30,187 nucleotides of DNA from a virus: IMG/VR virus record IMGVR_UViG_3300032006_000052, positions 1 to 30,187 of that record; one strand, 5' to 3'. The position numbers and the translations under genes were made by a program. Within the stretch, counting starts at the first letter, position 1, and every line of letters begins with the position of its first letter. Below are positions 1,570-30,165 of this stretch, piece by piece. The notes beneath the pieces were generated by a model. That model saw nothing but the letters and a program-made list of their open reading frames with translations, did not search any database and was not told the origin of the DNA.

Positions 1570-1597
1570 ATTATACTAGCTTTTGTTGTTTTGTCAA
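1570..1597 (-). promoter_or_regulatory. Sigma70-like promoter upstream of the lipoprotein gene
   Basis: Consensus TTGACA (1592-1597) and TATAAT (1570-1575), 16 bases apart. The -35 box overlaps the stop codon of the o-spanin-like gene. Confidence 0.65.
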
Positions 1598-2181
1598 TCT
1601 TTTTGTCTTGGGAATAGACCGATACTTGGTCTTATTGAATCATCATTACTATTAGAAACGCCAACACCTTGCTCTGATGTGCCATCTGGATTCTTAATAG
1701 TAACATTTCGATAATAAACAACTACTTCACCTAATTGTTTGATGTATCTTTTAAGTTCTTGCATATCTTCTGCCATCACTTTATAATCACCAACAGTAGT
1801 TGCGACGAATAGAATTTCGCCATTGTTTTGTTCTTTCATTTCATCTAGAAATCTATCTAGATATGTGTAGCCTTCTGGCCATTCTGGATTTTCTGTATCT
1901 TCTATAGCACAAGCTTTAGGTCTTTTAAGTTGTTCTACACCATTTTCATCAAACTTCTTAGGCTCAAATGATATAGTTCTCTTACAGGGATTTGTAATTT
2001 TGGCTGTTGATACGACATACCATTTAGGTGCTGTTAATTCTACAGGTCTAGGTAATTGTGGTTGAATAATGTCAATTTCTATAGGTTTAGTAACTACATC
2101 AATTCTTTTTGAACCAAATCCCGCACAACCACTAATCACTAGTGTTAGGAGCATCAATGTTATAAAGTGCTTCTGTATCAT
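1594..2181 (-). CDS. Outer-membrane spanin-like lipoprotein (Rz1-like)
   Basis: The 195-residue product begins with a lipoprotein signal (hydrophobic LMLLTLV, lipobox I-S-G-C, lipidated Cys19), followed by a proline-containing stretch (QPQLPRPVELTAP). Its start lies 50 bases inside the end of the preceding gene, which encodes a membrane-anchored coiled coil. That overlapping order, inner subunit then lipoprotein, is the classic Rz/Rz1 arrangement for fusing inner and outer membranes at lysis. It is much longer than most o-spanins, with an extra folded C-terminal region (about residues 55-195) of unknown role, so a second function is possible. The spanin assignment is inferred from architecture, not similarity. 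Confidence 0.55.
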   Translation of the reverse strand: MIQKHFITLMLLTLVISGCAGFGSKRIDVVTKPIEIDIIQPQLPRPVELTAPKWYVVSTAKITNPCKRTISFEPKKFDENGVEQLKRPKACAIEDTENPEWPEGYTYLDRFLDEMKEQNNGEILFVATTVGDYKVMAEDMQELKRYIKQLGEVVVYYRNVTIKNPDGTSEQGVGVSNSNDDSIRPSIGLFPRQKD

Positions 2182-2515
2182 CTTCTAATCCCTCCATTAC
2201 GGCTTCGCTAGCATTATTCATTCTAATCTCTATCAAACCTGGTTTTTTAAGTGCTAACATATCTAGATTATGTCTTGAGAATATTGCTAAATACTCAGCT
2301 TTCTCAGCTTCTATCTCAGCATTCACTCTTGCCATATTGTTTAATGCTTCACCTTGTCTCTCATATTGTTCTTTCATAACAGCCATAGTCTCTTTCTGTG
2401 TTTCAACAGCTGTTTCTAATTTGAAATTATTTTCTTTAAGCTTAATATTCTCTTGATATAGAAAATAACTCCCTATACCTAATATTAAAATAATTCCTAT
2501 AAATACTTGTTGCAT
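2132..2515 (-). CDS. Inner-membrane spanin-like protein (Rz-like)
   Basis: The 127-residue product has an N-terminal membrane anchor (about residues 4-18, VFIGIILILGIGSYFLY). A long charged coiled coil (about residues 22-85) and an acidic tail follow. This N-in/C-out topology with a periplasmic coiled coil is that of i-spanins. The 3' end overlaps the lipoprotein gene by 50 bases, and the start forms TAATG with the upstream gene's stop, implying coupled translation. With the lipoprotein it would form a two-component spanin. Other membrane-anchored coiled-coil roles cannot be excluded. Confidence 0.55.
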   Translation of the reverse strand: MQQVFIGIILILGIGSYFLYQENIKLKENNFKLETAVETQKETMAVMKEQYERQGEALNNMARVNAEIEAEKAEYLAIFSRHNLDMLALKKPGLIEIRMNNASEAVMEGLEDDTEALYNIDAPNTSD

Positions 2516-3088: not shown

Positions 3089-3484
3089 CTAATTTTTTCT
3101 ATTTCTTGCCATACCTTTAATCATAGAAATTCTTTTATGAACTTTCTTCTTCTTTGGTTTAGTGTGAACTGTGTTATCATCTCCAGTTCCAGCGATATGT
3201 GGGCCAGTCACACTTCCCATATCTTCATATTGAACACCATTTCTTAGTTTCTTGAATTCTCTAAGTCTAGGTTCTCTACGATTATATTTTTGAGTTACTA
3301 TAGAAAGATTACTTTTATCATTATTCATTGGATCATTGTCCTTATGATGAACATCTTTACCTTCTAGTTTTTCTGGAGCTGTTGACTTCTTTAACGATGC
3401 CCTAGCCGCGTTTCTAGCCGCTCTCCTGAGTTTTTGTTCAGGTCTTGAGTGGTAATTCTCGTATTCTTTCTTATAGTTTCTCAT
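3089..3484 (-). CDS. HNH-endonuclease-like basic protein
   Basis: In this 131-residue protein the segment at residues 45-70 (VHHKDNDPMNNDKSNLSIVT) has the HNH pattern: a paired histidine at 46-47, a central Asn-rich turn, and the N-L that precedes the second helix. The third canonical His is not obvious; an Asn may replace it. Very basic flanks (RRAARNAARASLKK; C-terminal KPKKKKVHKR) suggest DNA binding. HNH proteins in T4-like phages include homing endonucleases and packaging-associated nickases; there is no intron or insertion signature here. It overlaps the peroxiredoxin stop as TAATG. Confidence 0.6.
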   Translation of the reverse strand: MRNYKKEYENYHSRPEQKLRRAARNAARASLKKSTAPEKLEGKDVHHKDNDPMNNDKSNLSIVTQKYNRREPRLREFKKLRNGVQYEDMGSVTGPHIAGTGDDNTVHTKPKKKKVHKRISMIKGMARNRKN

Positions 3485-3957
3485 TATAGGTATTCTAATA
3501 CAGTTTCAGGTTTAGACATCTCATAAGGATCTTCTCCATGATCATCTTCAATCCCTGCTTCTGCAAAAAGTTGTTCTACTTCACCATTATTTATAACAGC
3601 AGCGTATCTCCAACTCCTATATCCGAAACCTAAATTCTCTTTTTTGACTAACATTCCCAATCTTCTGGTCAATTCGCCATTTCCATCAGCTAAAAAGTTC
3701 ACTCTTTGTGCATCTAGATTATGTCTCCAGGCTTGCATAACAAAAGCATCATTAACAGAAATACACCATATCTCATTAATGCCTTTTGCTTCAAACTCTG
3801 AAAATAGTTCTTCATATGCTGGAACTTGTTTAGTTGAACAAGTAGGTGTGAATGCACCTGGTAATCCAAAGATTACTACTCTCTTATCTTTAAAGATATC
3901 AGTAGTATCTATAGGGTCTAAGGGTGCTTGGTTTATTTTGATGTTTAATAGATTCAT
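3484..3957 (-). CDS. Peroxiredoxin, Prx5-like
   Basis: Thiol peroxidase that would reduce hydrogen or alkyl peroxides in the cytoplasm. The active site PGAFTPTC is complete (residues 33-40; Pro33, Thr37, peroxidatic Cys40). The surroundings (VIFGLPGAFTPTC, VPAYEEL) are typical of the Prx5 subfamily. Its 157 residues match the usual length, so the gene looks intact. Cys66 (EIWCISVND) is the only other cysteine and is not at a standard resolving position, suggesting a 1-Cys-type enzyme needing an external thiol donor. As an auxiliary metabolic gene it may protect host machinery or the replisome from oxidative stress during infection. It lies among small conserved phage genes with no other redox gene in the window. 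Confidence 0.9.
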   Translation of the reverse strand: MNLLNIKINQAPLDPIDTTDIFKDKRVVIFGLPGAFTPTCSTKQVPAYEELFSEFEAKGINEIWCISVNDAFVMQAWRHNLDAQRVNFLADGNGELTRRLGMLVKKENLGFGYRSWRYAAVINNGEVEQLFAEAGIEDDHGEDPYEMSKPETVLEYL

Positions 3958-6456: not shown

Positions 6457-9153
6457 TTAGTTGCCCTTGATGTATCCGAGTTTTCTCATCTTCTCTCTAA
6501 AATTCTTTCTACGACCATCTATTTTGTGGTCTGAAGGATTTGCGTCTTTTTCTTCGTGATCGCCTTTCCAATTTTTATCTACATAATCAAAGAATTCTTT
6601 CTTCTTTTCACCTTCTAATTCATCAGGTGAATTAACACCAAACTTTTTAAGTGCTTTCATAAAGAATTTTTGATATGCTTCTTTGTCGCCACCTTCTGGT
6701 ATCCATTTATCAATACCTTCATTAGCTAATCTTAATGCATTTCTTACTTCTGGATCATCTGATAGACCTTTTTTTAATTTTTCTATAGCTGTTACTGCTC
6801 CAGTCATATTTCCACCTGCATATCGTTTGTCCCAAACAATACCCATTGCCATTTTAACTAATTTCTTAGGAAAGCGTCCTTCAGTCATAACTTGATTAAA
6901 TGTTTTCACTTCTGTTTCCCCTATATATTTGTAAGTGTATGACTTTCCTGTAAACTTATCTTTTACATTATAAGTATTTCCACTCAATTTTAGTATTTTT
7001 CCAGCAGCTTTTAATCCGTCTGGTTTTAAAAATTCTATTTCTTCACCCATTATATAAGCATCTTCTACTTCATCTCTTGTATATTCAGTAGGTTTTTGTT
7101 CTTCAACTGTAGATTCTAATGCTAATATAACTCTTTGTGTTTCTCTTTCATGGAATACATCTTCTAAATCTGTTTGTTTAAAAGATATAAAGCCATTCTT
7201 ACCAAGTTCTTTTTGAACTTGTTCAACTTGTAATTCTTTATCTAATATCATTCCAAAGCTATCACATGCTGCTATAATATCTTCAACTGTAGCATGTCTG
7301 TTTCCAAATCCATCAGTATTTATTGCTACTGCTCTTGGATATGCTTGTGATTTTAATTTGAATGGAGACTGTTTAGCATGTTCTTTTTGTTCTTTGAGTT
7401 TATCTTCTCTAGTTTCTTCTCTGATACCCAATCTTTTCATGTGTTTCTTAATTACTTCTCTTGCATCACCATTTGGATTCTTTTTACCAGCAGTATATAT
7501 ATCATCTAATAAACTGTCGTCCCCAATAAGATTACTAATTACATCTGAAGCATCATCACCATTTTTACCAAGTTTGATTGGTTTTTTCATCAAGTCTTTT
7601 AATTCTTTCTTTTGTTTAGAAGTCTTTGGTAATGCCCATGTTCCTTCTGCAAACATATTTTTAAATTTTGCTGAAGGAAGCTTTTGAATTTGTTCGAATG
7701 AAGATGAAATATCAAGTTCTTTAAAGTTTTTACCTCTTTCTTGACCCATTACCATTAATCTCCAACGATCTCCTTCATCAACAGCATTGATAATTACATC
7801 TTTACCTGAAGGGGCACTTTTTAGATTCTTCATCATTGGATTAAAGCTTATTCCATCTTTCTTTAATTGTGTAGAAACAATTTTTAGAGCTTTCTCAATT
7901 TCTTTACTATCTAGAAAAACTTCAAAATCTTTAAGTTTTTTACCACTTGGTAAATTTACACCAAATCTTTCTTGAACATCTTCTTTTAATTTATTGAATG
8001 CTCTCTTGTCAGCAACATTAGTCATTAACCAATCATCAACTTCATCTGCATCATCTGAACTAACTAGACCTTTATCATATGCATAAGCTAGTAAAGCTAA
8101 TTCTGCATCATAATCTAAGTCTTTGCCTCTTTGAAAATCTGCAATTTGTTTTTTGTATTTAGATTTAATCTGTCTAAGTTTCATTCCAACTCTTTCTTTA
8201 AGATTTTCTTCACCCATAGACTTCCAATCTTTTCTCAATCCCTTGATAACTTGTATTGAAACATTATACAACTTAGCAATCTTTGCATCTGAAACACCAG
8301 CTTCAAAATCCATAATAATGTCTTTCATTTTACCTTCATCTACATTCTTTAAATCTTTAGAGAATTTAACTTTAAACTTCTTGAGAGCTTTGTCAAGACC
8401 TGTATCTAATACAGCATATTCTTTCTTTAGACCTGGTGCTTTTCTTGTTTTTTTATTTCCATAATAATCTGAAAGGAAGCTCTTAGCTGCTGCTAAAGTT
8501 ATATTATGATCTCTTGCTAACTCTTTAGCTGTAGCACCCATTTGTATATCAATGAGAAGATCACCCATTTTACTTTCGTTTAAAGTGAATTCTTCTTTCA
8601 TACCCATAATCTTATGTGCTAATTTAACTAAAGTTTGAAGATTAGCTTTTTCCATTTTCTTTTTATTAGCATCATTTACTTTATCATAAGCCTGTGTTAT
8701 AACACTAGCCGTAAACATATCAACCATTATACCATTAATCTTTCTGGCTCCTTTAGTCTTAACAATATTTCGCATATCTGAAAGAGCACTCTCTAATTGT
8801 GCATTCTCAAACTTGAATAATTGATCAAATGCATACATTGAATAAGTTTTATAACCCATTTTAGCTAATTCTTTTTGGATTAATTTTTTTTGATATTCGA
8901 CTGAACCTTGTGCTGCTCTACCTAATTTCAAATAGGCTTTCTTTATTTCTTCTTCGCCAGCATGTTTTTTACCAAGACTTCTTGCAATACCTCTATCACC
9001 TTTATCATCTTTAGGTTTAGCTTCAGGTGCTTCTTTCATAACACCCATTTTCTGTGCGTTTTGTTGATAAGTAGTCTTAGCTGGGTTAGCTTTAGTAACC
9101 TCGCCTATTAAACTACGCAAATCTTTAAAATCGTTGATTATGTGTCCTGACAT
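6457..9153 (-). CDS. Large modular protein with duplicated HTH-like units
   Basis: The 898-residue cytoplasmic or virion protein is strongly charged and Lys-rich. Residues 193-231 (ESKMGDLLIDIQMG...) and 273-311 (EGKMKDIIMDFEAG...) are diverged copies exactly 80 residues apart; each ends in a helix-turn-helix-like segment (TAKELARDHNIT; SDAKIAKLYNVS). Further modules begin FAEGTWALPKT (501) and FNQVMTEGRFPKK (752). I recall the EGTWALP module from other marine phage proteins. Short sites of the form X-X-E-(G/S) precede several modules (LNE-S193, VDE-G273, FAE-G503, MTE-G758), as if it were processed into pieces by the prohead protease. A head-core or internal DNA-binding polyprotein is my best guess. 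No catalytic motif was seen. Confidence 0.6.
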   Translation of the reverse strand: MSGHIINDFKDLRSLIGEVTKANPAKTTYQQNAQKMGVMKEAPEAKPKDDKGDRGIARSLGKKHAGEEEIKKAYLKLGRAAQGSVEYQKKLIQKELAKMGYKTYSMYAFDQLFKFENAQLESALSDMRNIVKTKGARKINGIMVDMFTASVITQAYDKVNDANKKKMEKANLQTLVKLAHKIMGMKEEFTLNESKMGDLLIDIQMGATAKELARDHNITLAAAKSFLSDYYGNKKTRKAPGLKKEYAVLDTGLDKALKKFKVKFSKDLKNVDEGKMKDIIMDFEAGVSDAKIAKLYNVSIQVIKGLRKDWKSMGEENLKERVGMKLRQIKSKYKKQIADFQRGKDLDYDAELALLAYAYDKGLVSSDDADEVDDWLMTNVADKRAFNKLKEDVQERFGVNLPSGKKLKDFEVFLDSKEIEKALKIVSTQLKKDGISFNPMMKNLKSAPSGKDVIINAVDEGDRWRLMVMGQERGKNFKELDISSSFEQIQKLPSAKFKNMFAEGTWALPKTSKQKKELKDLMKKPIKLGKNGDDASDVISNLIGDDSLLDDIYTAGKKNPNGDAREVIKKHMKRLGIREETREDKLKEQKEHAKQSPFKLKSQAYPRAVAINTDGFGNRHATVEDIIAACDSFGMILDKELQVEQVQKELGKNGFISFKQTDLEDVFHERETQRVILALESTVEEQKPTEYTRDEVEDAYIMGEEIEFLKPDGLKAAGKILKLSGNTYNVKDKFTGKSYTYKYIGETEVKTFNQVMTEGRFPKKLVKMAMGIVWDKRYAGGNMTGAVTAIEKLKKGLSDDPEVRNALRLANEGIDKWIPEGGDKEAYQKFFMKALKKFGVNSPDELEGEKKKEFFDYVDKNWKGDHEEKDANPSDHKIDGRRKNFREKMRKLGYIKGN

Positions 9154-24280: not shown

Positions 24281-24733
24281 TTATTCAGATAAGAATTGTT
24301 TCTTAACTGATTTTTTGAGATTACCAATCTCAATAGTTCTGGCTTTCTTTTCTTCCGGAACTACTCTTTCAGCATAAATGGAAAGTATTCCATTTGAAAG
24401 ATCGGCACCTTGAACCACAACATCATCTGCAAGAACAAAGTTCCTTGAGAATTTTCTTTGTGAGATACCTTGATGAACAAACCCATTATCTTTATCACTA
24501 AGCTCACCTGAGACTGTCAGATTTGATTCCTTAACTGAAACAGTTACATCTTCTTCTGAAAATCCAGCTAATGCTAATTCAATAATATAAGAATCTTCCT
24601 CAGCTCCTTTACGGATATTGTAAGGTGGATAATTGGTTTGTGGTAATGATCGGACTCTATCTAGTTCATTAAAAACTGAACCGAATCCTATTGTGAAGGG
24701 ACTGAAATCGTCCCATATGCTTATCTTATTCAT
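24281..24733 (-). CDS. Small heat-shock protein, Hsp20/IbpA-like
   Basis: ATP-independent holdase chaperone. The 150-residue protein has an alpha-crystallin domain from about residue 37 (YPPYNIRKGAEEDSYIIELALAGF, the IbpA-type LAGF-x-x-(E/D)D pattern), a characteristic SQRKFSRNFVLADDV strand and the late GILSIYAERVVPEEKK motif. Phage Hsp20 proteins are common in T4-like marine phages and may protect head or replication proteins. The start has a perfect AGGAGG six bases upstream. A late box and a terminator-type hairpin lie upstream. Confidence 0.93.
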   Translation of the reverse strand: MNKISIWDDFSPFTIGFGSVFNELDRVRSLPQTNYPPYNIRKGAEEDSYIIELALAGFSEEDVTVSVKESNLTVSGELSDKDNGFVHQGISQRKFSRNFVLADDVVVQGADLSNGILSIYAERVVPEEKKARTIEIGNLKKSVKKQFLSE

Positions 24734-25712: not shown

Positions 25713-25802
25713 TTAGGTATAAAACATTACAAGCAGCATTAAACTACCACCTATAATGTAAACAAGTGCAGAGATTACCCAGACTGGGATTTTATCGAAC
25801 AT
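25713..25802 (-). CDS. 29-residue membrane peptide
   Basis: ATG at 25802 to TAA at 25713 encodes MFDKIPVWVISALVYIIGGS plus nine residues, a single transmembrane helix covering nearly the whole chain with a short polar N-terminus. Its start overlaps the stop of the membrane coiled-coil gene (TAATG), making it the last member of the four-gene coupled cassette. It could be a small holin- or antiholin-like peptide, or an assembly partner of the exported proteins. Gene call rests on coupling and the clean membrane segment. Confidence 0.55.
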   Translation of the reverse strand: MFDKIPVWVISALVYIIGGSLMLLVMFYT

Positions 25803-26191
25803 TAGTTCAGTAAAGGATTATCGTTATCTTCTTCTAGAACTTTGATATCATCTTGAATATCTTCAATAACACCTTCTAAAGATTTAATTGAAGCTTTTAT
25901 AGAACCTACATCAACTTTAATAGCAGTTATAGAATCACCACCTTCACGAACTTCTATAAGAATAGTATCATCAATAGACTTATTAATGAATTCAATAGAA
26001 GTTTCAATACCTTCGAATCTTTCTTCTATTTCTTGAAGGCCACTTTTAGTTTCAGCTATACCGCCAACTTTCTTTTCAAGATTTTCTAATCTATTCACAT
26101 AAGTTGCACCTGTATATCCAAACCCGGCAAGTGTTCCTATTATACTAACTAAAGCGATAATTTGAGTTGTTTTGTTTTGAAACCAATCCAT
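25802..26191 (-). CDS. Membrane-anchored coiled-coil protein
   Basis: The 129-residue protein has a short N-terminus, one membrane helix (about residues 10-30, IIALVSIIGTLAGFGYTGATY) and then a roughly 95-residue acidic coiled coil (ENLEKKVGGIAETKSGLQEI onward). The N-in/C-out topology would place the coil in the periplasm. It is coupled by TAATG to the large exported protein upstream and to the 29-residue peptide downstream. It might tether or chaperone the exported proteins, or be a spanin/holin-type factor. Function unknown. Confidence 0.6.
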   Translation of the reverse strand: MDWFQNKTTQIIALVSIIGTLAGFGYTGATYVNRLENLEKKVGGIAETKSGLQEIEERFEGIETSIEFINKSIDDTILIEVREGGDSITAIKVDVGSIKASIKSLEGVIEDIQDDIKVLEEDNDNPLLN

Positions 26192-28737
26192 TATAATGTT
26201 CCTCCATCTAAATTAGGTTGTTGGTTAATAATAGTATTTAGTGTTCTTAAATTCTGTCCAGCTAGAGAATAAAATCCAGATGTATTATCTGATATAGAGA
26301 CATTAGCATATATTTCTCTTGGTTCATACCAATCTTGTTTCTTAGGAACTTCTTGTCCATAGTAAGTAGTAAATCCTGGATTATATCCTAAATAAGCTAC
26401 ATAAGCTGTTTGATCTGCATACTGTCCTGTATCTTCTTGTGCTTGTGTCATATCTTCTTGTGCGTTCTTTAGATTCTGTGCTACTATTTGATCAGCTATT
26501 GAATCTGCTTCTGATGCAGTCATTACTCCTGAGACAGCTGTATCTATTTCTCCCTGCATATTCTGAACTTGAACTTCTGCCATTACTACTTGAGATGAAC
26601 CAGCATCTCCAACTCCTGGCATTGGAGTAATTGTTGTTGTTACATTACTAACTGTTTGAGAACTTCCACCCATTCCACTTGTTGAACCCATATCTTGATT
26701 TAATGATAATATTGTATTTGTTTGAACAGCTGCAGTTTGTATTTGGTCTGAAATACTTGGAGAACTACTTGTTGAAATTCCACCACCTGTTGATGAACTT
26801 GCTATTGCTGATGATGTAGTATTACCTGCTACAGAAGTTGAACCAACAGAACCCGCTGATGAACCACCATAAGTTGATGAGACTCCGGACGACTGTGATG
26901 AGCCCCAACCACCACTGGCGGCTGTTGTTCCTGCTGTTGTGCCAGACATGCTATTTGATGCTGCTGTTATGCTTCCAGCCACCACATTTAATTGATCCTG
27001 AGTAATTCCTCCTCTTCGTTCTGAAGGCTCACCACCTTCAGCTATTAATTCTTCAGAATCTTCTCTAAGTTCTTCTTCTGCTTCAGCTACTAATTCTTCT
27101 TGAATTTCTTCTAATTCTTCATAAATTTCTTCAACAGCTTCTTCTTCAAAAATTTCTTCTTCTGCATATAATTCTTCTTCTAATGTTTCTTCGAATTCTT
27201 CTTCTGCATATAATTCTTCTGTTTCTTCAAATTCTTCTTCGAATTCTTCTTCCCATTCCTCTTCGAATTCTTCTTCAAATTCTTCATGTTCTTCATCATG
27301 CTGGGCTATTTCTTCTTCGAACCATTCTTCTAATTCTTGTAAAGTATCTATTGAAACATAGGTGTTTATATCTTCATAATCTTCTATTTCTTCTAATATT
27401 TCTAAATGAACAAATTCATCTAACAATTCGTCTGGGTTAAATTGTAATGTTTCTATAGAATAATAATCATCTTGATAATCGTTAATTTGATAAAATTCTT
27501 CAATATATGGATCGACATATTCTTCATAGGTTTCATAGTTTTCTGTTATATACAATATTTCTTGTTCTAAGTCATACTGTGTCATACCATCTTCAACGCC
27601 TGTGAAAAATAATTCTTCTTCCATATGACTATCAAAATCTATAAAACCATCTTCGTTGAAAGCTACATCAGTTCCATACCATTCATCTACTTGTTCTTGA
27701 CCAAATTCTTCTAAATCTATCTCATACCATTCTTCATCAGTAAATTCTTGATAAGCATATGGGTCATCATCAAATCCATATTCATCAAATCCATACTGAT
27801 CTGCATAATCATCATATCCATAATCAAAATGTTCTTCCTCAGTATAATATGCTACTGATTGTTCTTGAGTATATCCTGCACATGAAGGACTATATTGTGG
27901 GTCTAAATCACATTGTAAATCATCATAAGCTTCCCAATATAAAGGACAAGATTCACTATGTAAAGAATCTATACCACATTGTTGAGTTAAATAAGCTGCT
28001 GCATATCCTGTACAAGATGTACTGTTTAATGGATTACTACAATCTAATGCATTTCCAGAACCTACTCCATATAATGAACCACCATTTTCTAGTAAAGTAT
28101 TAAATGTAGAGCTATTCCAATTTTGACTAACACAACTACTACCATTAGTTGTACCTGTACTACATTCATCATAATGGAGATAAGTATAAACCTCGTCACT
28201 ATCTCCTTGTTCTCCGATAATAACATCATGCTGAATAATATTTAAACCACCATATCTAAATTCGAAGCTATCATCAGCTTTCCAAAGTATAACCTCAAAA
28301 CTGTTATCAGTATTAGAGCGATTATATTCTCTAAGATTATACCAACCAAAGACAGATTTATCAGTAAAGTTTCTAGCTAGAACTTTTGAACCATTGTCTC
28401 TAATTAAATCAGTCCAGAAAGGATATAGGGTATAGTTTCGATAAGGTAAAGGATCGGGAGTATAATCGTTGCAATAGCCACTTGAACCTGATTTCCAAAA
28501 ATGAAGGCATCCGTTAGTTGCCATTTTGACCATAGTAAAATCTTGGCCATAAAAAGTATAAGTAAAGTCTAGATTAAATGTTGATGAGACTTGATCATCT
28601 CCTGACGCTAAATTATAAGATGTGGCTATATAATTCGTCTTTAAATCAATAAGTGGTTGATTAGCCTCATAAACATATTCTGCAGAACTTATAGTTGAGA
28701 ATAATAAAAGACTTAATGTAAGAAACTTCTTAAGCAT
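26191..28737 (-). CDS. Exported acidic protein with nidogen-like N-terminus
   Basis: This 848-residue protein has a Sec signal peptide (MLKKFLTLSLLLFSTISSA, cleavage after Ala19). Residues about 45-190 resemble a NIDO-type extracellular domain (FYGQDFTMVKMATNGCLHFW, LYPFWTDLIRD, FGWYNL). A Cys-rich region of short repeats follows (about 190-295; SCTGYAAAYLTQQC, SCAGYTQEQ). Next is an extreme Glu/Asp/Tyr tract (about 300-565) and a Ser/Gly/Thr linker (about 575-690). The C-terminal domain (AYVAYLGYNPGFTTYYGQ to NQQPNLDGGTL) is of a type I recall in other marine phages. It is exported to the periplasm or surface. Its start overlaps the previous gene by eight bases. Function unknown: adhesion, surface exclusion, calcium binding or lysis are all possible. 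Confidence 0.75.
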   Translation of the reverse strand: MLKKFLTLSLLLFSTISSAEYVYEANQPLIDLKTNYIATSYNLASGDDQVSSTFNLDFTYTFYGQDFTMVKMATNGCLHFWKSGSSGYCNDYTPDPLPYRNYTLYPFWTDLIRDNGSKVLARNFTDKSVFGWYNLREYNRSNTDNSFEVILWKADDSFEFRYGGLNIIQHDVIIGEQGDSDEVYTYLHYDECSTGTTNGSSCVSQNWNSSTFNTLLENGGSLYGVGSGNALDCSNPLNSTSCTGYAAAYLTQQCGIDSLHSESCPLYWEAYDDLQCDLDPQYSPSCAGYTQEQSVAYYTEEEHFDYGYDDYADQYGFDEYGFDDDPYAYQEFTDEEWYEIDLEEFGQEQVDEWYGTDVAFNEDGFIDFDSHMEEELFFTGVEDGMTQYDLEQEILYITENYETYEEYVDPYIEEFYQINDYQDDYYSIETLQFNPDELLDEFVHLEILEEIEDYEDINTYVSIDTLQELEEWFEEEIAQHDEEHEEFEEEFEEEWEEEFEEEFEETEELYAEEEFEETLEEELYAEEEIFEEEAVEEIYEELEEIQEELVAEAEEELREDSEELIAEGGEPSERRGGITQDQLNVVAGSITAASNSMSGTTAGTTAASGGWGSSQSSGVSSTYGGSSAGSVGSTSVAGNTTSSAIASSSTGGGISTSSSPSISDQIQTAAVQTNTILSLNQDMGSTSGMGGSSQTVSNVTTTITPMPGVGDAGSSQVVMAEVQVQNMQGEIDTAVSGVMTASEADSIADQIVAQNLKNAQEDMTQAQEDTGQYADQTAYVAYLGYNPGFTTYYGQEVPKKQDWYEPREIYANVSISDNTSGFYSLAGQNLRTLNTIINQQPNLDGGTL
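27045..27330 (-). repeat. GAA/GAG-rich acidic coding repeat
   Basis: Repeated Glu codons, interrupted by Phe, Trp and Tyr (units such as EEFEEEFEEEWEEEF), encode the densest part of the acidic tract. On the plus strand this is a TTC/TTCTTC-rich stretch. Confidence 0.75.
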
Positions 28738-30070
28738 CTGAAGCCCATTCTTTAGCGCATTGTTTTCTAGTCTTAGTCTTAGGAGTTATAACAGAATCAA
28801 TTGCTCCTGCTACATCTTTTTTAATTCTATCTCTAGTTGGGTTAGGCTCTAAAGTACAGGCTGCTAGGAAATCTTTATAAGGTTGTTCAGCTGCTGCTAT
28901 AGCTGCGGCTTCTCTTATCTTTTTATCTTCTCTTTCTTGTTTTTCTCTAGCTTTCTTTTCAGCTTTTTCTTCTTTTGCTCTTCTTTTTAATTTCTTCTTA
29001 TATACTTTTTTATCAGGTCTATCTTCAACATTGACTAACCACATCTTAGCAGCTTCTGCTCCAACTTTTCCTTCATAAGGACAAGGTGTTCCAGCCATCT
29101 CCATTGCTGTGAATACTCTTTCGTCTTGACACATGATTGCAACTGCTGCTACTTTCATACCCATATCATAAAGATATTTACCCAGTTTTAATCTTTCACA
29201 ATTTTCATCTCTTACAGTTCTACCTGCTGATAAACCAAAGACTTGACCTTGAAATGCTCCTGATCTTCCAACTGTACATAAATCCTGAGAATAACTCATA
29301 ATACTAGGAGCAATCGCAGAAGCAGGCGGTGCTTCAGTCTTAATATTTTGATTGATAGTTTGTTCAGACTTTGACTCATTAATATTTCTATTGGTGTTAT
29401 CGCTTGTGCTTGTGTTTTCATTTCTATTTGTATTATTAGTTTCTACCTTAGAATCAGATGTAGATTGATTCACATTAGTATTATTATTATTATTTGTATT
29501 GTTGCTAGTACTATTACTTGTGCTTTGATTAACATTGGTATTGTTATTGGTATTCACATTAGTATTATTGCTATTAACAGTTGAATTCGTATTACTATTT
29601 ACTGTGCTATTTACCGTGCTGTTGCTTGTACTGTTGCTAGTATTAACATTATTATTGGTATTAACATTGGTGCTTGTGCTAGTATTGGTGTTAGTATTTG
29701 CATTGGTGTTTGTAGCCGTGCTAGTATTAACATTAGTATTTGCATTCGTATTTGTTGCAGTGCTTGTATTAACATTTGTGTTAGCATTAGTATTGGTGCT
29801 CGTATTAGTGTTGGTATTTGTTGCAGTGCTAGTATTAGTATTGGTGTTTGTAGCTGTGCTAGTATTAGTATTGGTGTTGGTATTGGTGTTGGCGTTTGTA
29901 TTATTATTGGTGTTGGTGTTGGTGGTAGTTGTGGTATTGGTTGTTTCGAGCGAATTTTGCTCACAATACTGCTCACCTGCCGTACAGTTGCCAGTCTGAT
30001 CTGCCAATGCATTGGTTGACCATAAACTAGTTAATAATAGAATCGTTCCCAAGATCCCTATCTTTTTCAT
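28730..30070 (-). CDS. Exported Asn/Thr-repeat protein with conserved Cys domain
   Basis: The product is 446 residues from the ATG at 30070. I prefer this over an in-frame ATG at 30100 because the signal peptide (KKIGILGTILLLTSLW..ALA, cleavage after Ala23) starts here and GGGAG lies upstream. Residues about 42-245 are an almost pure Asn/Thr/Ser repeat with units such as STATNTNTNT. A Cys-containing domain follows (SYSQDLCTVGRSGAFQGQVF, NCERLKLGKYLYDMGMKVAA, AIMCQDERVF, AGTPCPYEG), of a type I recall from marine T4-like phages. Next is a basic helical coiled coil (KKLKRRAKEEKAEKKAREKQ) and a Cys-bearing C-terminus. Alternating Asn/Thr favours beta or amyloid-like fibres, but that is inference. 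First gene of the coupled cassette under a late box. Confidence 0.75.
   Translation of the reverse strand: MKKIGILGTILLLTSLWSTNALADQTGNCTAGEQYCEQNSLETTNTTTTTNTNTNNNTNANTNTNTNTNTSTATNTNTNTSTATNTNTNTSTNTNANTNVNTSTATNTNANTNVNTSTATNTNANTNTNTSTSTNVNTNNNVNTSNSTSNSTVNSTVNSNTNSTVNSNNTNVNTNNNTNVNQSTSNSTSNNTNNNNNTNVNQSTSDSKVETNNTNRNENTSTSDNTNRNINESKSEQTINQNIKTEAPPASAIAPSIMSYSQDLCTVGRSGAFQGQVFGLSAGRTVRDENCERLKLGKYLYDMGMKVAAVAIMCQDERVFTAMEMAGTPCPYEGKVGAEAAKMWLVNVEDRPDKKVYKKKLKRRAKEEKAEKKAREKQEREDKKIREAAAIAAAEQPYKDFLAACTLEPNPTRDRIKKDVAGAIDSVITPKTKTRKQCAKEWASDA
29340..29945 (-). repeat. Degenerate tandem repeat encoding Asn/Thr units
   Basis: AAT/AAC and ACT/ACA/ACC codons alternate for about 600 bases. 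The clearest period is about 30-42 bases (STATNTNxNT, sometimes extended by xNT) between roughly 29640 and 29910. Synonymous variation between units shows selection for the protein pattern rather than very recent expansion. Confidence 0.8.
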
Positions 30071-30128
30071 TTTTCTTTGTCTCCCGGGAGTTGTTCCCAT
30101 TTGAAAAATTGATTTCTAATCTATTAAC

Positions 30129-30136
30129 TATTTATA
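30129..30136 (-). promoter_or_regulatory. T4-type late promoter box for the exported-protein cassette
   Basis: Exact TATAAATA directly abutting the terminator's T-run and about 59 bases before the ATG at 30070. No sigma70-like pair was seen here. Confidence 0.65.
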
Positions 30137-30165
30137 AAAAAGGCGTGTTAAAAACACGCCTTTTT
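30137..30165. terminator. Bidirectional rho-independent terminator
   Basis: A perfect 13-bp stem (30137-30149 with 30153-30165, core GGCGTGTT) surrounds an AAA loop, with T-runs on both strands. It isolates the exported-protein cassette from genes to the right. Confidence 0.9.

Follow-up and report, generated by a model that had tools for sequence, protein, structure and literature searches.

A conserved three-gene module of exported and membrane proteins in ocean phages, probably an envelope machine separate from curli

We identified a module of three genes (P1-P2-P3) whose order is conserved beyond chance in T4-like, podovirus-like and roseobacter phages, and which probably constitutes a hitherto unrecognised machine in the host cell envelope, separate from curli. 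Tentatively, its products could form one envelope-spanning complex that is used at the exit (lysis) stage. The window, by which we mean the whole stretch of DNA that was analysed, is an entire IMG/VR record of 30,187 bases and part of a phage genome; it encodes T4-like replication genes (PolB, UvsX and a DnaB-like helicase). Elsewhere it holds two genes for host-type stress proteins, one peroxiredoxin-like (3484-3957) and one Hsp20-like (24281-24733), as well as a large gene (6457-9153) whose 898-aa product has only a marginal PHROG match. The features discussed below are as follows.

30137 to 30165, no strand assigned: bidirectional intrinsic terminator upstream of the cassette, with a 13-bp stem and U-tracts on both strands
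30129 to 30136, minus strand: TATAAATA box, T4-late-promoter-like, exact match, abutting the terminator
28730 to 30070, minus strand: P1, 446 aa when counted from the likely start, predicted to be exported by Sec (signal peptide, homologue family)
29333 to 29944, minus strand: Asn/Thr repeat of P1 with two-residue alternation, conserved in 31/32 aligned homologues
29036 to 29284, minus strand: core domain of P1, residues 263-345, with Cys265/291/314/330 (mean pairwise identity 0.78)
26191 to 28737, minus strand: P2, predicted Sec-exported protein, 848 aa (signal peptide, homologue family)
28048 to 28680, minus strand: N-terminal beta-sandwich head of P2, weakly NIDO-like (Pfam score, AF2 model)
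27028 to 27861, minus strand: acidic region of P2, 42% Asp/Glu by composition
26194 to 26532, minus strand: C-terminal segment of P2, with the typical clade ending (M/L)..QPNL in the alignment
25802 to 26191, minus strand: P3, 129 aa, N-terminal hydrophobic anchor and coiled coil (hydropathy, alignment)
25811 to 25819, minus strand: C-terminal Asn-Pro-Leu (NPL) motif of P3, 35/35 in the alignment
25713 to 25802, minus strand: P4, hydrophobic membrane peptide, 29 aa, with relatives in loci L033 and L037
22916 to 23413, minus strand: phage lysozyme (Pfam family PF00959), 2.3 kb downstream of the cassette, associated with it but outside it
2132 to 2515, minus strand: Rz-like i-spanin of the window phage (phrog_739, E 7e-13)
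1594 to 2181, minus strand: Rz1-like lipoprotein o-spanin of the window phage (phrog_812, E 5e-10; lipobox ISGC)

Read directly from the sequence, the cassette lies on the minus strand in the order P1, P2, P3, P4, with an 8-base overlap (ATGCTTAA) joining P1 to P2 and TAATG at both of the other junctions. The elements described in an initial annotation of this DNA (the terminator, the TATAAATA box and the four joined genes) are all present on this strand, and its account of the products, namely two large Sec-exported proteins, a membrane-anchored coiled coil and a 29-residue peptide, was borne out from the sequence, with Sec export judged by hydropathy and the AXA rule. Folding of the terminator gave -16.4 and -16.9 kcal/mol on the two strands (z -6.9 and -5.7). 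The TATAAATA box also lies 67 bases upstream of P1 in two T4-like loci (L221 and L227). In the window it occurs 7 times against 6.4 expected by chance, so its reading as a late promoter comes from position only, and we dropped it as proof of late expression. Of the late timing that had been proposed, what stands is a plausibility lent by the neighbouring lysis genes.

The start of P1 is probably the ATG at 30070 (MKKIGILG...) rather than the first ATG at 30100, which would give 456 aa, because a GGGAG-type ribosome site lies upstream of the former and the signal peptide begins there. The Sec-type signal peptide rule (hydropathy plus AXA) was passed by 30/32 members of the P1 family. The repeat spans about 200 residues and its alternation is evident from the autocorrelation of Asn (z = 7.0 at lag 2, z = -4.5 at lag 1); since short forms of P1 (HTVC023P, Mosig) lack the long repeat, it is not the conserved function. 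P1 contains eight cysteines, in apparent pairs, and its core is helical in the AF2 model, with pLDDT above about 80-90 from about residue 290 and exceeding 90 across much of the core. In four homologues C314 and C330 are both replaced by Ala while the remaining cysteines are kept, the pattern expected of a disulfide lost as a unit, which supports placement in an oxidising compartment, with the reservation that these four may descend from one ancestral loss. Pfam gave no match to P1 even at E values as high as 1, the curlin repeat included, whereas both P1 (E 1.7e-12) and P1 of Mosig (E 4e-13) matched phrog_20531, a family without assigned function.

P2 runs from a signal peptide (rule passed by 34/37 family members) through a beta-rich head, a Cys-containing segment, the acidic region and a Ser/Gly-rich stretch to a conserved tail. 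Its head is predicted to be beta-rich (AF2, pLDDT about 70-90) and resembles NIDO at E 0.0013, scoring 19.2 bits where Pfam requires 25; NIDO appears at E < 0.01 in 1/37 members, and the head of P2 in the uncultured Votkovvirus S28-C10 is instead CBM_4_9-like (E 0.0089, also below cut-off). Within the clade the head is the most conserved part, with a mean identity of 0.64 compared with 0.43-0.49 for linker and tail. The acidic linker and tail matched no family, and a protein search of annotated phages with P2 gave no match. Across clades, P2 was identified by its position, acidic linker and helical tail, between-clade homology being carried by the P1 core and the P3 signature. When the P1 and P2 models were compared with the PDB using Foldseek and VIA-align, nothing reached E < 0.001 and the best Z for the P2 head was below 6, so that we dropped assignment of function from predicted fold; against BFVD, P2 matched two uncharacterised phage proteins at E < 0.001.

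P3 has a single hydrophobic segment at its N-terminus followed by a coiled coil. The anchor is strongly conserved within the clade (0.80), while coil length varies such that the whole protein ranges from 74 to 194 aa. The NPL tail is highly specific to this protein: NPL followed by at most four residues ends 171 of the 3405 genes in the loci; the P3 profile accounts for 163 of these, and the last 8 resemble P3 in architecture. The apparent occurrence of the tail on lysozymes was rejected, as CRP-207 gp73 (L123:3292-3873) and CRP-810 gp51 (L127:7210-7632), both deposited as lysozyme, are P3 proteins, that is, NPL-ended membrane coiled coils. P4, in which no lipobox was found, has relatives in L033 (27 aa) and in L037, where the relative forms the N-terminal part of a longer protein.

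Searches with P2 and P3 yielded 115 viral-contig loci, most with both, and the search with the P1 core confirmed at least 597 candidates; for collection scans with the P1 core the narrower profile (A5) was used, the one built over all nine phages (A4) being too divergent. An NPL-ended P3 lies within 1.5 kb downstream in 128/130 loci with complete P1 and P2, and the P1 and P2 genes overlap in 95% of these. The initial annotation had named unlinked genes in relatives as grounds for abandoning a joint function, and this linkage answers that point. Carriers comprise the cultured phages HTVC115P, Mosig, HTVC023P, Baldr, HTVC202P and HTVC033P and the roseophages CRP-207 and CRP-810, together with S28-C10. 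Since these are unrelated kinds of phage (Mosig and the window phage, for instance, being T4-like), the cassette is, as judged by sequence comparison, a unit that moves or persists as a whole. Order conservation across unrelated phages, exported proteins of apparent disulfide type and a membrane anchor together support the proposal that the products work as one device at the envelope.

In the deposited records the module is unannotated or misannotated. CRP-810 gp53, labelled 'OmpA family protein', is P1, and in ctXG6705 (L125, 8900-9300) the P1 frame is unannotated and the P2-like gene downstream is labelled 'transport protein tonB'. HTVC115P also has, a few genes from the cassette, a gene annotated as 'toxin-activating lysine-acyltransferase' (gp46, L117:14321-14770). 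Genome collections gave 22 matches (L206-L227), almost all on contigs of metagenome-assembled or single-cell genomes from scattered taxa. We read these as phage contigs and dropped the idea of bacterial host homologues; the bins include cyanobacteria, archaea, Bacteroidetes and others, and the contigs are probably misbinned.

Lysis genes adjoin the cassette, which suggests use at exit. A lysozyme lies within 5 kb of P1 in 17 of the 22 records with a PF00959 lysozyme, against 5.0 expected under random placement, although these records are related and mostly fragments, so the counts are not phylogenetically independent and the p-value is not literal. A lysozyme cluster occurs within 3 kb of the cassette in 121 loci; the corresponding figures are 79 for Rz1-like lipoproteins and 76 for Rz-like proteins, with the same strand in almost every case. 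Two arrangements recur: in one the lysis genes are upstream and the lysozyme is divergent, in the other they are downstream and include Rz/Rz1. In Mosig, the first annotated gene upstream of P1 encodes a GTA_holin_3TM protein, and in HTVC023P P3 is followed by an M15 peptidase, a type of lysis enzyme reported for HTVC010P-type pelagiphages (PMC10504331). No lysozyme adjoins the cassette in HTVC115P, Baldr or HTVC202P.

Export and linkage are well supported from sequence, and what the cassette does we infer, including that its products bind one another, that the coil points into the periplasm and that they act at the lysis stage. The N-terminus of P3 would sit in the inner membrane with its coiled coil extending into the periplasm, and its invariant Asn-Pro-Leu tail would dock on a partner, either P1 or P2. 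Exported by Sec, these two would reach outwards, with an extended Asn/Thr stalk carrying the disulfide-stabilised domain of P1 and the acidic tether carrying the beta-sandwich head of P2, whose conserved C-terminal tail would join the complex. Upon the action of holin and lysozyme, the complex would form a bridge between inner membrane and outer envelope, and it may help to open or detach the outer layer or to coat it. Against this lysis-stage reading, another outer-membrane step seems redundant because many phages with the cassette, the window phage included, already carry clear Rz/Rz1 pairs.

The main rival, unlikely on balance but to be taken seriously, is superinfection exclusion or receptor masking, in which P1 and P2 tethered by P3 would coat or block receptors on the surface of the infected cell or, after lysis, cap those on debris, sparing progeny. 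It accords with the surface-exclusion layer suggested initially and with proteins that are apparently exported and tethered, and the head of P2 seems to vary in type by clade (NIDO-like in the window clade, CBM_4_9-like in S28-C10) while the helical tail is kept. However, the head is the best-conserved part of P2 within a clade, which speaks against a fast arms race at this surface but is compatible with a conserved ligand, and the lysis-gene neighbourhood is left unexplained unless the proteins act on debris. It is rather improbable that P1 and P2 are virion-associated, joining the particles either in the periplasm or during lysis. Structural and packaging genes do lie near the cassette in several small phages, but tail and head components do not typically carry Sec signal peptides or a membrane anchor, and no structural match was found in PHROGs; no virion proteome for a phage with the cassette was found in the open-access literature. 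A still smaller chance attaches to P3 and an adjacent lipoprotein being a second or replacement two-component spanin with P1 and P2 as accessories. P3 does combine an N-terminal TM anchor with a coiled coil, as an i-spanin would if the coil is periplasmic, and has a weak match to phrog_739 (E 7.6e-4). In about 39/174 loci (L063, L066, L072 and about 36 others) the end of the P3 gene is overlapped or abutted by that of a small lipoprotein, with a lipobox followed by EWNDKYD...W.ECM, in the layout of two-component spanins (PMC6139136). This lipoprotein is possibly a fourth member of the cassette, but none was found adjacent in 133/174 loci, and clear Rz/Rz1 pairs occur in the same genomes. P3 as the window phage's own Rz was rejected, given that no partner outer-membrane lipoprotein for it was found in the window and that clear Rz/Rz1 genes lie at 1594-2515.

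An extracellular adhesive or aggregation matrix independent of curli, with P1 forming fibres from its Asn/Thr strands and P2 serving as adhesin, is improbable as well, if slightly less so than the virion reading. The conserved alternation of Asn suggests an extended, possibly amyloid-prone strand, and the predicted beta-sandwich head would suit an adhesin, but no dedicated outer-membrane pore was found in the 39 records searched for csgG, the short P1 forms do without the long repeat, and no clumping was seen with the related phage Melnitz (PMC9004378), though Melnitz lacks the cassette. Curli genes are present in pelagimyophages (PMC7029224, PMC9599517, PMC9004378), and the initial annotation had regarded the Asn/Thr protein as a natural substrate for a curli pore. 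That P1-P2-P3 supplies substrate and accessory proteins to a CsgG/CsgF pore is now highly improbable. csgG was absent from 39/39 records with the cassette, including nine GenBank phage genomes recorded complete, whereas the positive control, HTVC008M, gave the expected match. HTVC008M and Melnitz both have csgG and lack the cassette (P1), and the phage csgG operons carry curlin-repeat genes of their own; that of HTVC008M (L228:7562-11963) encodes csgF, csgG, a FecR-like protein and two curlin-repeat proteins, one of which has an extra N-terminal domain. The two modules therefore never occur together in the 41 records compared. Mutual exclusion is suggestive rather than established, the comparison covering two csgG-positive and one cassette-positive isolates of pelagimyophage type. 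After these searches, and with the curlin repeat missing from P1, we dropped the curli-substrate reading, while noting that the window genome is incomplete.

Phages of SAR11 rank among the most abundant viruses known, and to our knowledge their exit from hosts and remodelling of the host envelope have hardly been studied. P1-P2-P3 offers a clear signature, two exported proteins followed by a coiled coil with an NPL tail, and is directly testable because it is present in cultured phages. The analysis also corrects the 'lysozyme', 'OmpA' and 'tonB' misannotations and sets the cassette apart from phage curli. No description of it was found in the part of the literature covered (open access). More tentatively than for the complex itself, it may be an undescribed phage envelope machine, exchanged horizontally among T4-like, podovirus-like and roseobacter ocean phages, in which an NPL-docking coiled coil organises two exported proteins at lysis, forming a new exit or surface class beside holin, endolysin and spanin.

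Among known systems, the tests run place the cassette outside spanins (lipoprotein), curli (csgG and curlin repeats) and NIDO proteins (cut-off). It shares with the type VIII secretion (curli) systems of HTVC008M and Melnitz the presence of exported Asn-rich-repeat proteins in marine T4-like phages, but its records lack CsgG/CsgF and curlin repeats. NIDO and CBM_4_9 domains recall the head of P2 weakly, but the rest of that protein differs. Superinfection exclusion by T4 spackle and Imm also combines an exported helical disulfide protein with a membrane protein; P1, likened to it here by description only, is much longer, and P2 and P3 have no counterpart there. With two-component spanins (PMC6139136) the cassette has in common an anchored coil, sometimes an overlapping lipoprotein gene, and lysozyme or holin nearby, but it adds two large exported proteins and an invariant NPL tail, coexists with true Rz/Rz1 and has the lipoprotein in a minority of loci only. 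By analogy, its mode of action may be that of a spanin-type bridge across the envelope, and there is a substantial chance that it represents a new class.
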